43,572 bases of DNA. Origin: Planctomycetota bacterium (GTDB lineage: Bacteria > Planctomycetota > Planctomycetia > Pirellulales > Pirellulaceae). The DNA lies in assembly GCA_027622275.1 (NCBI GenBank), contig JAQBZB010000041.1:1-43572 (forward strand), given 5' to 3'. Made by a program: the position numbers and the translations under genes. How positions within the stretch are numbered: position 1 is the stretch's first letter; each line of letters opens with the position of its first letter. The notes under the pieces were generated by a model. That model was not told the origin of the DNA and searched no databases. It saw only the letters and a program-made list of their open reading frames with translations. Below, piece after piece: positions 28,204 to 31,444 of this stretch.

Positions 28204-28211
28204 CGACACGC
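28204..28211. repeat. Left target-site duplication (CGACACGC)
   Basis: Eight bases identical to 31437-31444 and directly abutting the left terminal inverted repeat. Eight to nine bases is the normal duplication size of the IS1 family. Confidence 0.93.
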
Positions 28212-28236
28212 GGTAGTGGCTTAAAGTTGAGGGGAG
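28212..28236 (+). repeat. Left terminal inverted repeat, 25 bp
   Basis: Perfect reverse complement of 31412-31436. It begins GGTAGTGGCTTAAAG and ends TTGAGGGGAG. Confidence 0.95.
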
Positions 28237-28266
28237 GTCTCGGACGGCAGTTGCGACCACGCCCGT

Positions 28267-28575
28267 CTAGCGGCCAAACAGTCGATTGATAGGATCATCC
28301 ACATCCCCATTGAATTGCTGTTGTCGTTGCCATGCGTCGGCTGCCATACCGTCATCGACCCCGTTCACACGTGAAGCATTTCTTAGCTCGTCTTGGTGCA
28401 TTTGAATGTAATTTTCAAGGCGTTGAATACTACGACGAGCTTCTTGCAGTTCCTTACTGAGACGTGTTTTGTCGTTCCACCACCCGAGTGCTAGGGCAAC
28501 AACTAGCGTGCAAAGAAGCATCTCACGAATGCTGAACTGCCGTCGCCTTCTCGTTTTGTCTCGCTCGCTGGGCAT
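28267..28575 (-). CDS. Small single-span membrane protein with coiled coil (cargo)
   Basis: A 102-residue protein. A basic head (DKTRRRRQFSIREM) precedes one membrane span (LLCTLVVALALGWW), then a charged helix (KTRLSKELQEARRSIQRLEN) that should form a coiled coil, and a polar tail. The RRxQFSIRExLL head plus single span is a recurrent architecture in planctomycete genomes, so the cargo probably came from a planctomycete host. It reads toward the left end of the mobile element and stops 31 bases inside its repeat. Function unknown; a membrane-tethered dimer is the most that can be said. Confidence 0.72.
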   Translation of the reverse strand: MPSERDKTRRRRQFSIREMLLCTLVVALALGWWNDKTRLSKELQEARRSIQRLENYIQMHQDELRNASRVNGVDDGMAADAWQRQQQFNGDVDDPINRLFGR

Positions 28576-28638
28576 GGGGGCATCGTAGCAGGGGACGTTA
28601 GCGAACTTTTCAAGCCGGGCTGCATCTAATCCTTACAA

Positions 28639-28674
28639 TCTGGACTTCAGGTGTCCAGAAGTTCAGTTTCTGGA
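28639..28674. promoter_or_regulatory. Alternating dyads upstream of the cargo operon
   Basis: Three half-sites at 15-base spacing: TCTGGAC (28639-28645), GTCCAGAA (28653-28660) and TTCTGGA (28668-28674). The middle one can pair with either neighbour, so two exclusive 7-base-stem hairpins or two overlapping operators are possible. A TATACT box lies downstream at 28731-28736. Confidence 0.5.
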
Positions 28675-28832
28675 AAGCCTTGCGGATATTGACTTTATCA
28701 TTTCCAGGCAGTAGTTTGCCAAAGTAGAGTTATACTTGAGTAAAGGGCGAAGCAACGGAGTGCCGATGATCGCTCGATATGGAACTAGATCGATACCGCT
28801 ATTGCAGCGGTTTCTTTTTGCGCAATAGTAGA

Positions 28833-29291
28833 ATGGCTAAGAAGAGAACACAACCGATAACTGAACCGCCGCAACTCGGCTACATTCTTGTCTGTGATGC
28901 GGTAACGCGAGACCCCAACAAGAAAGTAAACCACTACGGAGTATTCAACAGGATTAATGGTGACAAACTGCCATTGGTGGCTAGGTTTGCCGTTTTCGCT
29001 CGATTGTACGGTGGCAGCGGGAAACATAAAGTAGCAATCGAGTTGATCGGCCCGGACGGCAAGACGGCTGATTCAGCGACACCGACAGTCGTTGAGGCTG
29101 ACTGCAAGCCTGAAGGGTTCATAGAGCTTGAGGGTGATGTAACTATTATTTTTAGCAAACCTGGGGATTATTATTTCCTAGTGAAATCGGGTCGTCGCAC
29201 GCTCGGTAGATCGTATCCCATTCACGTAGTCATTGCTGGAACACCCAAGGGAAAACCAAATGTCCTTCGCAAGCGTAGAGGCTCACCTTAG
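28833..29291 (+). CDS. DUF6941-like protein (cargo)
   Basis: A 152-residue soluble protein. The opening LGYILVCDAVTRDPNKKVNH followed by YGVFNRI, then a beta-rich middle (ARFAVFARLYGGSGKHKVAI, ELIGPDGKTA) and GDYYFLVKSGRRTLGRSYPI, matches my memory of DUF6941: a cytosolic beta-sandwich beginning with a CD..-..DP..K.SLIGVFD-type strand. Function of the family is unknown. I prefer the ATG at 28833; one at 28779 is in frame, and neither has a strong ribosome site. It is first in a three-gene operon (next ATG 20 bases after this stop) inside the mobile element. A+T content is clearly higher than in the surrounding genome. Confidence 0.72.
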   Translation: MAKKRTQPITEPPQLGYILVCDAVTRDPNKKVNHYGVFNRINGDKLPLVARFAVFARLYGGSGKHKVAIELIGPDGKTADSATPTVVEADCKPEGFIELEGDVTIIFSKPGDYYFLVKSGRRTLGRSYPIHVVIAGTPKGKPNVLRKRRGSP

Positions 29292-29310
29292 CATTCAGCG
29301 GGAGGCTACA

Positions 29311-29598
29311 ATGTCAGCGCGCGATCTAATGGAAGCCGTTCTCAAAAAGTTTAGCATCAGGCCGCGACTGCATGTTGTTAACGACCCAGTGACCGGCACT
29401 GCGGAAACTAGTGCGTCTGACGACCTATGCTCGTTTGTTTTCTCAAGTGAGCGGCATGCTCTCCTGTTGGCGATCGATGCGCCACTGGAGTTTGGTCAGT
29501 TCTCGCAATCTGATGCAGAGGATCTTGCGCTGGCACGCCAACAGCACGGAGTACCAGCAAGCAACTTCGTGCCACTTCCGACGCGCACCTCAAAATAG
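29311..29598 (+). CDS. Small unknown cargo protein
   Basis: A 95-residue protein (MSARDLMEAVLKKFSIRPRL...) with no recognisable domain, no signal peptide and no membrane span. An N-terminal helix is followed by HVVNDPVTG and a C-terminal stretch FGQFSQSDAEDLALARQQHG. The ATG at 29311 is chosen because GGGAGG lies 5 bases before it, the best ribosome site in the operon. An upstream ATG at 29260 would overlap the previous gene without such a site. The stop is 7 bases before the acetyltransferase start. Real-gene status rests on this spacing and the ribosome site. Confidence 0.7.
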   Translation: MSARDLMEAVLKKFSIRPRLHVVNDPVTGTAETSASDDLCSFVFSSERHALLLAIDAPLEFGQFSQSDAEDLALARQQHGVPASNFVPLPTRTSK

Positions 29599-29605
29599 AT
29601 TCTCG

Positions 29606-30124
29606 ATGCCGCAACTCCTTGAGTCGCACGACTTCTCCCACGACGATCTTGCCGATGTGCAAGACTTCTATTGCGGCGATCAAATCTGGGCTACATGTGC
29701 AGCTGAATGGATAAAAACACCCAAGGCAGAAGGCGTTGGTGCGATGTTCTCCATGGCGCGTTATCGCACAAAAGTGTGGCTCTATTACACATCTACCGGT
29801 TTGGTCGGCTTCGGTTCTCTGAGCAAGCCCAAGTGGCCGTGGCCTCTGCCTGACGGTAAGCCTACGAAGGTTAGCTACATTCCACAGATGGCAATTTCGT
29901 CGCGGTTCCAGGGGAAGCCCAAGGGCGCGAAGGATAGTAAATTCTCTCGCCAGATCATGCGAGACCTTATCGCGCAAGCATCGCAGCACGACACAGATAT
30001 GCTTTGTTTGCACGTGCATGTGGATAACGAGAACGCAATTGCCTTGTACCGCGAATTCGAGTTCCACGAATTTCGCGAACGCGATGAACTTGGCAACATG
30101 AAAATGTTCCGCTTTATGCGTTAG
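29606..30124 (+). CDS. GNAT-family N-acetyltransferase (cargo)
   Basis: A 172-residue protein. Strands and helices follow the GNAT fold: AEWIKTPKAEG, VWLYYTSTGLVGFGSL (strand before the cofactor loop), VSYIPQMAISSRFQGKPKG (the expected beta-4 strand and Q/R-x-x-G-x-G/A loop, here RFQGKPKG), then MRDLIAQASQ and the hallmark LHVHVDNENAIALYREFEFH. It should use acetyl-CoA to acetylate an amine; the substrate is unknown, and GNAT toxins acting on tRNA or proteins are one possibility. The start at 29606 follows the previous stop by 7 bases and begins just before the fold. Last gene of the cargo operon; a tRNA-like gene follows after 82 bases. Confidence 0.82.
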   Translation: MPQLLESHDFSHDDLADVQDFYCGDQIWATCAAEWIKTPKAEGVGAMFSMARYRTKVWLYYTSTGLVGFGSLSKPKWPWPLPDGKPTKVSYIPQMAISSRFQGKPKGAKDSKFSRQIMRDLIAQASQHDTDMLCLHVHVDNENAIALYREFEFHEFRERDELGNMKMFRFMR

Positions 30125-30206
30125 CGAACCTTGTCAGTCCATTCGGCCTCTTAGTTTTCATGGTCGAACACATGAGATTATCCGATGGCTTCGCCGCTCA
30201 CTTTCT

Positions 30207-30297
30207 GGAGAGTGGCCCGCGCCTTGGCGGCGCAATCGTCTTATAAGCGACCCAAGGGAGTCCCCACGGGATTGGGTTCGATTCCCCCAGCTCTCCG
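30207..30297 (+). tRNA. tRNA-like gene, possible 9/3 allo-tRNA
   Basis: Ninety bases plus a G discriminator. The T-loop TTCGATT (30277-30283) sits on a 3-bp stem (GGG/CCC). The canonical 7/5 layout leaves two T-stem mismatches. A nine-pair acceptor, 30207-30215 (GGAGAGTGG) with 30287-30296 (one bulged G at 30290), fits fully, giving a 12-bp branch of 9+3. A D-arm (CCGC-GCCTTG-GCGG) and an anticodon arm (TCGT-CTTATAA-GCGA) follow, then a long variable arm (TCCC-CAC-GGGA). The loop implies anticodon UAU (AUA codon); the identity looks serine/SelC-like from the G discriminator and variable arm. The extra bases at 30231-30235 and an A-C pair make the assignment tentative. No CCA is encoded. Confidence 0.6.
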
Positions 30298-30486
30298 CTA
30301 ACCGCGTTTAATGCGGTTCTTAGCGATCCTCGTGAGGTGCTGCCGCGCCCACGTTGCCAGCTTCGTGCCGTCCAATTCGGCGGCCTGCTCACAGTCAGCC
30401 TTTTCGGTCGCTGTGAGGCGAAGTAGGACAATGGCGTCCTTGCGGTCCTCGGGGGATTTTGTCGGTGCTCCACGTTTGTTTGTCAT
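30298..30486 (-). CDS. Small DNA-binding-like regulator, possible ribbon-helix-helix
   Basis: A 62-residue protein: MTNKRGAPTKSPEDRKDAIV, then LLRLTATEKADCEQAAELDG, then TKLATWARQHLTRIAKNRIKRG. One strand (DAIVLLRLT) followed by two helices (ATEKADCEQAAEL and TKLATWARQHLTRIA) is the MetJ/Arc/CopG plan, as in antitoxins and relaxosome proteins. The ATG at 30486 is preferred over the one at 30504, which would lie in the operator. The stop directly abuts the tRNA-like gene and the tail contains a hairpin (30300-30318). The gene shares a symmetrical promoter with the transposase leader, so it probably represses both itself and transposition. No toxin partner is adjacent. Confidence 0.72.
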   Translation of the reverse strand: MTNKRGAPTKSPEDRKDAIVLLRLTATEKADCEQAAELDGTKLATWARQHLTRIAKNRIKRG

Positions 30487-30494
30487 GCCATAAA

Positions 30495-30551
30495 TGTATA
30501 TCAAAAATAATCTAAGTCAACCCTTGACGAGGCGAATAAATGATATACAAT
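30495..30551. promoter_or_regulatory. Dyad-symmetric divergent promoter/operator
   Basis: Arms TGTATATCA (30495-30503) and TGATATACA (30541-30549) are exact complements. Inside, GTCAA-CCC-TTGAC (30516-30528) is a second dyad. Twelve bases separate the dyads on each side, so the whole block is symmetrical about 30522. Leftward: TTGACT, 16 bases, TACATT. Rightward: TTGACG, 16 bases, TACAAT. Both -10 boxes overlap the outer arms, so a protein binding there would shut both promoters. Confidence 0.75.
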
Positions 30552-30581
30552 AACGACGGTTCTTTGATACCCAACTAAACG

Positions 30582-30615
30582 AAAAAACCCGGCAAGTGCT
30601 GAAACACTCACCGGG
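30582..30615 (-). terminator. Intrinsic terminator on the minus strand
   Basis: On the minus strand the stem CCCGG(TG)AGTG...CACTTGCCGGG is followed at once by TTTTTT (30587-30582). It would stop transcripts coming back from the transposase side before they enter the regulator promoter. On the plus strand there is no T-run. Confidence 0.65.
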
Positions 30616-30627
30616 CTCAATCACAAC

Positions 30628-30700
30628 GGGCTTTCGCGCAGATGCGACGTGGTAATTGCATTCTAACGAAAGCCCCCGACAACGGGAAGGTTTCGTTAGA
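30628..30700 (+). promoter_or_regulatory. Mutually exclusive hairpins before the transposase
   Basis: Hairpin A pairs GGGCTTTCG (30628-30636) with CGAAAGCCC (30667-30675). Hairpin B pairs TCTAACGAAA (30662-30671) with TTTCGTTAGA (30691-30700), covering the first base of the ATG and placing the ribosome site GGGAAGG (30684-30690) in its loop. The two share CGAAA, so only one can form. This is the layout of a translational switch. Confidence 0.6.
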
Positions 30701-31427
30701 TGATAGCCACAACATGCCAGCACAAGAGAAAGACAAGCAAGGGTCGGGATCGCAAGGGCCAGCAGCGGTGGACGTGCAAAGACTGCGGGGTTTGTTTTAC
30801 CAACTACGATCCGAAGCCGCTTGGCGAGATGCAAGTCAACCTCGACAAGGCTAAGCTTGCCTTGCGGATGCTGACGGAAGGTATGTCGCTCAGGGCGACC
30901 TCGCGGACGACCGGCATTGACCGCAACACCATTTGCAAACTGCTCGTCTTGTTTGGGCACGCCTGCCAACGATTCCTTGACGATCGGATGCACGGACTGA
31001 AACTGACTCATTTACAATTTGACGAGCAGCACACAACAGTTTTGAAAAAGCAGGCTCGCCTAACCGTCACCGAGAAGGCCGAACGCCACGACATTGGAGA
31101 AATGTATATCTGGACCTGCATCGACCAGCAAACAAAACTGACGCCCTCGTTTCTCGTTGGGAAGCGGTCGGCTGACAATGCCCGCAGGTTCATGATGGAC
31201 GTTGCGAAGCGGCTGGCCCGACCTGCCCCACACACCAGCGACGCGAAGCGGCCTTCGGAATGTTCACGGCCTACTACAACTATTGCTGGCAGACGCGATA
31301 CCCGGACAAGAGCGGTAAGGCTGGTACGAAGCGCCCGAGCGCGGCTATGATGGCGAAACTGGCCGGACACGTCTGGTCGTTTGATGAACTGTTCGAGGAG
31401 GTTCTAAAAGTCTCCCCTCAACTTTAA
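30700..31427 (+). pseudogene. IS1-type transposase, catalytic middle deleted
   Basis: The first 180 codons give a zinc ribbon (Cys6, His8, Cys26, Cys29: WTCKDCG), a helix-turn-helix (LRATSRTTGIDRNTICKLL), then THLQFDEQ and YIWTCIDQQTK with the first catalytic Asp (Asp142). After HTSDA (about 31240) the frame changes. The genuine C-terminus, AFGMFTAYYNYCWQTR ... SFDELFEEVLKVSPQL, continues in another frame to the TAA at 31425-31427 inside the right repeat. In frame, the broken protein reads 36 unrelated residues to a stop at 31350. The segment with the second Asp and the Glu is missing, so it cannot transpose by itself. GGGAAGG 9 bases before the ATG supports the start. Confidence 0.88.
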
Positions 31428-31436
31428 GCCACTACC
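31412..31436 (-). repeat. Right terminal inverted repeat, 25 bp
   Basis: Perfect reverse complement of 28212-28236. The transposase's last residues and stop codon are encoded in it. Confidence 0.95.
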
Positions 31437-31444
31437 CGACACGC
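31437..31444. repeat. Right target-site duplication (CGACACGC)
   Basis: Identical to 28204-28211 and abutting the right terminal inverted repeat. The ninth base differs on both sides, so the duplication is exactly 8 bases. Confidence 0.93.

Follow-up and report, generated by a model that had tools for sequence, protein, structure and literature searches.

We found that an IS1-family transposon of a Pirellulaceae bacterium carries an allo-tRNA with the anticodon UAU, and that in related elements the anticodon of the linked tRNA matches codons at fixed places of the transposase, a rule supported by comparison. The transposon lies in a 43,572-nucleotide stretch of DNA, which we call the window. 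We propose that such a tRNA–codon pair forms a cis-encoded, codon-addressed brake on transposition. We put the probability of this reading at roughly 0.5, with expression, charging and direction all inferred.

Results

An allo-tRNA with a 9/3 branch

A preliminary description of the window had proposed a tRNA-like gene of the rare 9/3 layout, with a UAU anticodon and serine-like identity, inside a mobile element. The 91-nt sequence was confirmed at positions 30207–30297, with the loop CTTATAA at 30240–30246 and the anticodon TAT at 30242–30244, and CCA is not encoded at its 3′ end (G73 = 30297). ARAGORN found no tRNA in the window, missing this one, and Rfam gave no match to 30207–30297 at its gathering score. 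Under relaxed thresholds, the sole Rfam match within 30100–30420 was tRNA-Sec (30207–30296, full length, E = 0.013). Long acceptor and D stems and G73 are common to both, but a tRNA-Sec identity was rejected: the match reached 23.9 bits against a gathering score of 47, and the anticodon is UAU rather than UCA. The 9/3 branch is a further difference. When the single strand was folded, it gave z = −1.96 relative to shuffles, and 8 of 200 shuffles were equally good. As this is only modestly better than shuffles, the fold is not proven by the single sequence, and the proof is supplied by homology.

A nucleotide search of 98 genomes, including the genome of origin, gave tRNA matches in 13, and plasmids held no match to the tRNA stretch. 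A covariance model (R1) built from 14 sequences, the window among them, was then used to search 396 genomes from the order and 392 from the phylum; the window's own score (Table 1) should be read with this in mind. Matches above ~55 bits were assigned to the allo-tRNA family and those below ~45 bits were taken as mostly ordinary tRNAs, an assignment inferred from score and ubiquity without a one-by-one check. Elsewhere in the same genome, a third R1 match (contig C554, 27565–27649, minus strand; 51.7 bits) fell between family and ordinary-tRNA scores, and contigs C166 (5185–8181) and C32 (78–2566) held dense arrays of tRNA matches, many low-scoring, that resemble mobile tRNA arrays.

In an unfitted MAFFT alignment of 14 homologues, the two pairs specific to the 9/3 layout were formed in 14/14 and 10/14 sequences, whereas the two T-stem pairs specific to the canonical 7/5 fold were formed in 1/14 each, and the 7/5 fold was rejected on these counts. 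The larger alignment (66 matches, 65 distinct) was, unlike the MAFFT alignment, fitted to the model. Here acceptor pair 8 was formed in 64/65 distinct homologues, 7 of them changed on both sides, and pair 9 in 57/65, with 8 changed on both sides. D-stem and T-stem cells were each paired in 98.5% of cases and those of the variable-arm helix in 84.3%. The covariation score was 0.403 versus 0.159 in shuffles, none of 500 shuffles scoring as high, and 236 pair cells were changed on both sides versus 68.8 in shuffles.

The stem needs one correction: position 7 is usually unpaired, being non-standard in 41/65 homologues. The 3′ strand of the window's tRNA is one base longer than in most of them, which allows two readings: a bulged G beside nine formed pairs, or T7.G and a bulged A. 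The anticodon was UAU in 61/66 family matches, and G73 with a long arm was present in 66/66. The T-loop read ATCGTAA in 14/66 members and ATCGAAA in 4/66, instead of TTCGATT (alignment A3).

The 9/3 layout, the anticodon, the serine-type marks and the location in a mobile element all held, and homologues lacking the 9-bp stem or the anticodon loop, which would have refuted the proposal, were sought without refuting it. Thus, 30207–30297 is a real 9/3 tRNA. It meets the description of an allo-tRNA, as comparison shows: a 12-bp branch split 9/3, SerRS-type marks (G73 and the long variable arm) and the anticodon of a non-serine codon. Its charging with serine and its use in translation are inferred.

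The preliminary description did not know of published UAU allo-tRNAs with a transposon link. According to a review (PMC7609411), the branch of allo-tRNAs is either 8/4 or 9/3; UAU ranks among the most frequent anticodons of the 8/4 forms, and for 9/3 forms only Arg, Leu or ochre anticodons are listed. The review describes UAU forms as more abundant in metagenomes from soil and sediment than any other group of allo-tRNAs, and reports that they were not usable for translation in E. coli. The present family shares with this group (Mukai et al. 2017, via PMC7609411) the 12-bp acceptor branch, the SerRS-type identity elements, UAU, and an association with transposons, a UAU pseudogene in Edaphobacter C40 overlapping a transposon-related ORF. 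It differs in combining UAU with a 9/3 branch, as the published UAU forms are 8/4. The element ends, the ribbon-helix-helix (RHH) partner and the codon match described below are absent from the review's description.

The transposon carrying the tRNA

The element is a 3225-bp IS1-family transposon (28212–31436) with perfect 24-bp inverted repeats and an 8-bp target duplication (Table 1). Its gene order is passengers, allo-tRNA, convergent RHH gene and transposase, and the stop codon of the RHH gene is the three bases directly after G73.

Table 1. Features of the tRNA-bearing transposon, in window positions
Feature	Position	Strand	Evidence
Left target-site duplication CGACACGC	28204–28211		Same 8 bases at 31437–31444
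Left terminal inverted repeat, 24 bp	28212–28235	+	Perfect inverted repeat of 31413–31436
Passenger gene, DUF6941	28779–29291	+	PF22091, 50.8 bits (cut-off 27)
Passenger gene, GNAT-type acetyltransferase, start codon uncertain	29411–30124	+	PF00583, 25.2 bits (cut-off 20.7)
Allo-tRNA, 9/3 branch	30207–30297	+	Anticodon UAU at 30242–30244, G73 at 30297; covariance model 97.8 bits and covariation in 65 distinct homologues
RHH protein, 62 aa	30298–30486	−	ORF and position; NikA-like 17.4 bits, below cut-off 27
IS1-family transposase remnant	30700–31427	+	tblastn with the L086 transposase
Right terminal inverted repeat, 24 bp	31413–31436	−	Perfect inverted repeat of 28212–28235
Right target-site duplication CGACACGC	31437–31444		Same 8 bases at 28204–28211

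Membership of the IS1 family is shown by an IS1-type DDE transposase in relatives (four above the PF03400 cut-off, one of the four above that of NF033558), inverted repeats and target duplication; the window copy itself is a remnant. These features, with a duplication of 8 bp, are common to IS1-family elements that carry passengers, and the present element differs in that its passengers and its transposase are separated by a tRNA and an RHH gene. IS1 uses a programmed insA–insB′ frameshift; the relatives here have a single transposase frame. Among 61 oriented loci, 22 combined an exact 8-bp duplication with GGTAGTG-type ends, which were allowed to differ from a 12-base query at no more than 3 bases; L102 and L113 reach this limit at each end. 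The genome also holds a second copy of the element (contig C37; 1716 bp), which has its own duplication and in which the tRNA's 5′ half is joined to the 3′ end of the transposase. Edges of pairwise BLAST matches had suggested an element starting at base 1 of the tRNA; this was rejected, as the inverted repeats and duplications place the left end 0.7–3.4 kb upstream.

The window's transposase corresponds to residues 1–182 of the L086 protein (30700–31245), followed in another frame by residues 290–346 (31245–31424). It lacks 107 codons, including the AUA-bearing segment described below, and the catalytic Glu. The transposase is dead, and so only the tRNA and RHH halves are left in this copy.

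Pfam RHH_1 was above cut-off in 2/6 tested relatives of the RHH protein, and no relative of it was found on viral contigs. An ORF of ≥30 codons ended beside the tRNA 3′ end in 47/61 loci; by eye, most were RHH-like, and those of L097, L113 and L122 were not. Passengers varied between elements and, by eye only, included PIN, PemK-like, HigAB-like and DNA-methylase proteins. As regards a toxin–antitoxin module, an RHH-like gene adjoins most family tRNAs and some of the variable passengers look toxin-like by eye. PADLOC gave no match for three window ORFs. In L100, L103 and L114, the family tRNA and an RHH-like gene lie beside an unrelated transposase, read as IS4-type, indicating that the tRNA–RHH module can change partner.

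No enrichment of a −10-like motif was detected upstream of the tRNA. The motif CGAACC (30125–30130 in the window) occurred within 150 bases 5′ of the tRNA in 33/59 loci, versus 0.066 expected per 150 bases from these loci; it could conceivably be a passenger-exchange or processing site.

AUA codons at fixed places in linked transposases

The preliminary description had also suggested counting AUA codons in the element's genes. This count gave the main result, not in the window's own passengers, but in transposases of relatives that still have the segment lost from the window. From the 61 oriented loci (window included), we hand-picked 32 transposases that were IS1-type and had a long open reading frame. 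This excluded copies that were broken, short or out of frame (L089, L092, L094, L127 and L128 among them), transposases of other types, and L117, which duplicates L116.

All 32 intact, tRNA-linked transposases had AUA at alignment column 262 (21) or 281 (11), before the catalytic Glu. Isoleucine at columns 262, 263, 244 and 273 was written AUA in 21/21, 12/12, 6/6 and 8/9 cases, respectively, and AUA made up 73/133 isoleucine codons within columns 237–283 versus 16/386 outside them. Among 1911 column–codon tests, AUA at 262 and 263 ranked first and second, and at 273 and 244 fourth and fifth. Within the segment, ATA occurred 73 times in frame versus 12 and 11 times in the other frames; elsewhere, the counts were 16, 16 and 76. 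These column–codon and frame tests were not corrected for relatedness, for which the tree analysis below corrects in part. Avoidance of AUA in the rest of the transposase gene was not significant (22/456 versus 61/885 isoleucine codons, p = 0.15).

When the L120 transposase was modelled with AlphaFold (mean pLDDT 85.8), columns 241–244 fell in strand 195–204 and columns 262–270 in strand 218–227. Column 281 (residue 235) immediately precedes the helix that holds E241, an invariant residue like D107 and D178. The AUA codons are thus predicted to lie either in a β-hairpin that follows the second Asp of a DDE fold and precedes its Glu, or just before the Glu helix, with the catalytic roles inferred. 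The best Foldseek match of the model was the ISCth4 transposase (TM-score 0.38). The IS4-type transposases of L100 and L103 share an AUA (column 294) that also precedes a Glu motif, and 28 homologues without an R1 match had no AUA at that column. L114, which is IS4-type with a UAU tRNA, has ATC there and no AUA.

These data bear on the possibility that the RNA is merely tRNA-like and does not decode, so that its cloverleaf would be important but not its anticodon, as in a regulator bound by the RHH protein. In its favour, the RHH gene abuts the tRNA, the non-canonical T-loops ATCGTAA and ATCGAAA occur in 14 and 4 of 66 members, and the UAU group is reportedly inactive in E. coli (PMC7609411). 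However, a non-decoding RNA needs neither an anticodon kept in 61/66 members nor a matching codon cluster in the adjoining gene, and we consider this explanation very unlikely.

Controls and phylogeny

We compared transposases with and without a UAU tRNA. The genome scan kept the best 80 of 468 relatives (Planctomycetota, many Acidobacteria and others), and five plasmid loci were added. Removal of L229 and near-identical proteins reduced 117 transposases to a non-redundant 107. AUA was present at column 262, 263 or 281 in 37/37 transposases with a UAU tRNA versus 10/70 without; at 262 or 281 alone, the values were 36/37 versus 9/70. In L189 and L192, the UAU tRNA is on the other strand. A filters-off search in six of the ten AUA transposases lacking a detected UAU tRNA revealed no convincing tRNA.

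One parsimony reconstruction on a FastTree phylogeny gave four changes in the presence of the tRNA (three gains and one loss). All four changes fell on branches with a codon change in the same direction, codon changes occurring on 9/212 branches. In L153, the sole inferred loss, the isoleucine at column 262 is written ATC. Likewise, L189, with a UAU tRNA, has ATA where L191, in which no tRNA was found, has ATC.

Viral contigs were fetched after the rule had been set and were not de-duplicated. Here, AUA was present in 5/5 loci with a UAU tRNA, two of which (L246 and L299) have 7/5 tRNA bodies, versus 2/75 without (L287 and L305). Thirty-four more loci (L341–L374) were examined, 11 of which were copies studied before. 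Nine of the 23 further loci had AUA at 262, and a UAU tRNA was found or attributable in five of these and not found in four (L349, L351, L358 and L374). It was detected by program in L356 and L366, the latter with a class I body, and by eye in L352; L369 has a partial match truncated by the end of the locus. L359 falls within the putative L113 element (3 mismatches at each end), at a distance of 2.2 kb from the tRNA of that element. The anticodons of L206, L246, L279, L341 and L352 were read by eye, that of L246 not blind.

Four AUA-AUA transposases with an RHH-like gene (L159, L160, L176 and L212) had no tRNA found upstream. By eye, a GC-rich stretch with inverted repeats occupies the expected place of the tRNA in these loci.

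A second anticodon–codon pair

A second pair, UAC with GUA, was observed. L180 has a serine-like 7/5 class II tRNA with UAC, and its transposase has four GUA codons at columns 261–263 and 281. L297 and L301 have class I tRNAs with UAC, and in each, 6/6 GUA codons of the transposase lie inside the segment. In a scan of all codons in 197 transposases, made without knowledge of the tRNAs, GUA in L297, L301, L279 and L180 took ranks 1, 2, 4 and 6. No tRNA had been noted in L279 before; a UAC tRNA-like sequence was then recognized upstream by eye. A relative of L301, L341, has 5/5 GUA codons and, by eye, a UAC tRNA-like sequence. L341 and L342 are not independent cases, as L341 is 80% identical to L301 and L342 is on the L279 contig. 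Pairing in the anticodon arm is poor in L279, L297 and L301.

Linked tRNAs with GCU, GUC, GCA, ACU, UUG, UGU or UUA had no matching codon cluster in the transposase segment, so the anticodon–codon rule is shown for two anticodons only. Single tRNAs lie a few hundred bases upstream of IS1-type transposases in L165, L177, L181, L185, L205, L207 and L249 (Ser GCU, Asp GUC, Cys GCA, Ser ACU, Gln UUG, Thr UGU and Ser ACU, respectively). UUA (ochre) tRNAs lie directly upstream of such transposases at L197:2218–2305, L206:2119–2213, L218:2026–2206, L235:2251–2338 and L272:2297–2380 (ARAGORN; L206 by eye). Stop read-through by these tRNAs was rejected, as the transposases looked at had no in-frame stop.

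The match might instead reflect descent: a few transposase lineages would happen to carry the tRNA and use AUA for a reason of their own, such as mRNA structure or pausing for folding, while the tRNA has another role. In favour of this, the inferred events number only four (three gains and one loss) and come from one tree and one parsimony rule, and no UAU tRNA was found in an AUA-AUA lineage. Against this, all four tRNA changes coincide with codon changes, the AUA site varies by lineage (262 or 281), other UAU bodies (L246, L299 and L366) go with AUA, and UAC goes with GUA. Descent alone seems unlikely.

Discussion

Because UAU/AUA and UAC/GUA match in linked elements, we infer that the element carries a tRNA–codon pair aimed at its own transposase, and a brake seems the likeliest direction. 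In the proposed mechanism, the allo-tRNA would be transcribed and charged, with serine for the G73 and long-arm type, and would compete with host tRNA-Ile at AUA. A wrong residue would be inserted at hydrophobic AUA positions, or decoding would be slowed there, and active transposase would fall as the tRNA dose, and hence the copy number, rises. The RHH protein would perhaps regulate the brake. The altered decoding of a rare AUA codon suggested in the preliminary description has not been shown, and transcription is inferred, as is serine charging.

The host genome has TilS, so AUA should be read there as isoleucine, the host CAU tRNA being inferred. In 71 transposases without a UAU tRNA, the residue at column 262 was Val, Cys or Ile and that at 281 mostly Ile or Val; Ser was never found at either, suggesting that it is likely harmful there. 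If charged with serine, a UAU tRNA would thus damage the transposase at these codons, and more so at higher copy number. Several observations count against the brake. AUA transposases without a detected UAU tRNA (10/70, and 4/9 further AUA-262 loci) also argue against a strict link. Other linked tRNAs have no matching codon cluster, and L114, an IS4-type element with a UAU tRNA, has no AUA. The class I bodies of L301 and L366 are not serine-like and fit misreading less well. Finally, the UAU group is reported to be unusable for translation in E. coli (PMC7609411), and the tRNA lacks −10-like enrichment upstream.

The main rival, which remains possible, is a licence: a cluster of rare AUA codons would stall ribosomes before the catalytic Glu, and the element's tRNA would permit full-length transposase. 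The bldA tRNA does likewise for genes with UUA, and a truncated product might act as a repressor, like InsA of IS1. In support, AUA accounts for only 7 of 8017 codons in hand-picked host-like ORFs of the window. As relatives that lack the tRNA mostly have Ile, Val or Cys at the codon columns, a correct Ile or Val seems wanted, and class I bodies such as L366 and L301 might carry one of these. Against the licence, G73 and the long arm in 66/66 members of the 9/3 family indicate serine, not isoleucine, by the usual identity rules of tRNAs. AUA transposases without a tRNA found persist, which counts against a strict form, and GUA should be well read by ordinary tRNA-Val.

The likeness to bldA is that this Streptomyces tRNA also reads a rare codon and acts on the few genes holding it. 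The present tRNA differs in being on a mobile element, beside its target gene, with body marks that do not fit the amino acid of the codon. Only the codon–anticodon link of such a switch has been observed (37/37 versus 10/70; viral contigs 5/5 versus 2/75). In a bolder reading, which we are slightly more inclined to doubt than to accept, the tRNA carried by IS1-family transposons of several bacterial phyla would be exchangeable, and its anticodon would evolve in step with a small group of cognate codons in their transposase, which lie next to the catalytic Glu at the insertion hairpin (UAU/AUA and UAC/GUA). The pair would form a private codon channel through which the elements mistranslate, and so limit, their own transposase.

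UAU allo-tRNAs with a transposon link were known as 8/4 forms; what is new is AUA at fixed codons before the catalytic Glu of tRNA-linked transposases. A search of openly licensed PMC literature found nothing relevant on a transposon tRNA matched to transposase codons, and, as it was limited to those papers, absence from print is not established.

The codon–anticodon match gives UAU allo-tRNAs, which were without a known job, a definite target in their own transposase, and makes their role testable by one synonymous change. If the proposal is true, a selfish element would control itself by codon meaning, and not by a repressor, an antisense RNA or a frameshift, and a tRNA and its codon would evolve together within one mobile unit.
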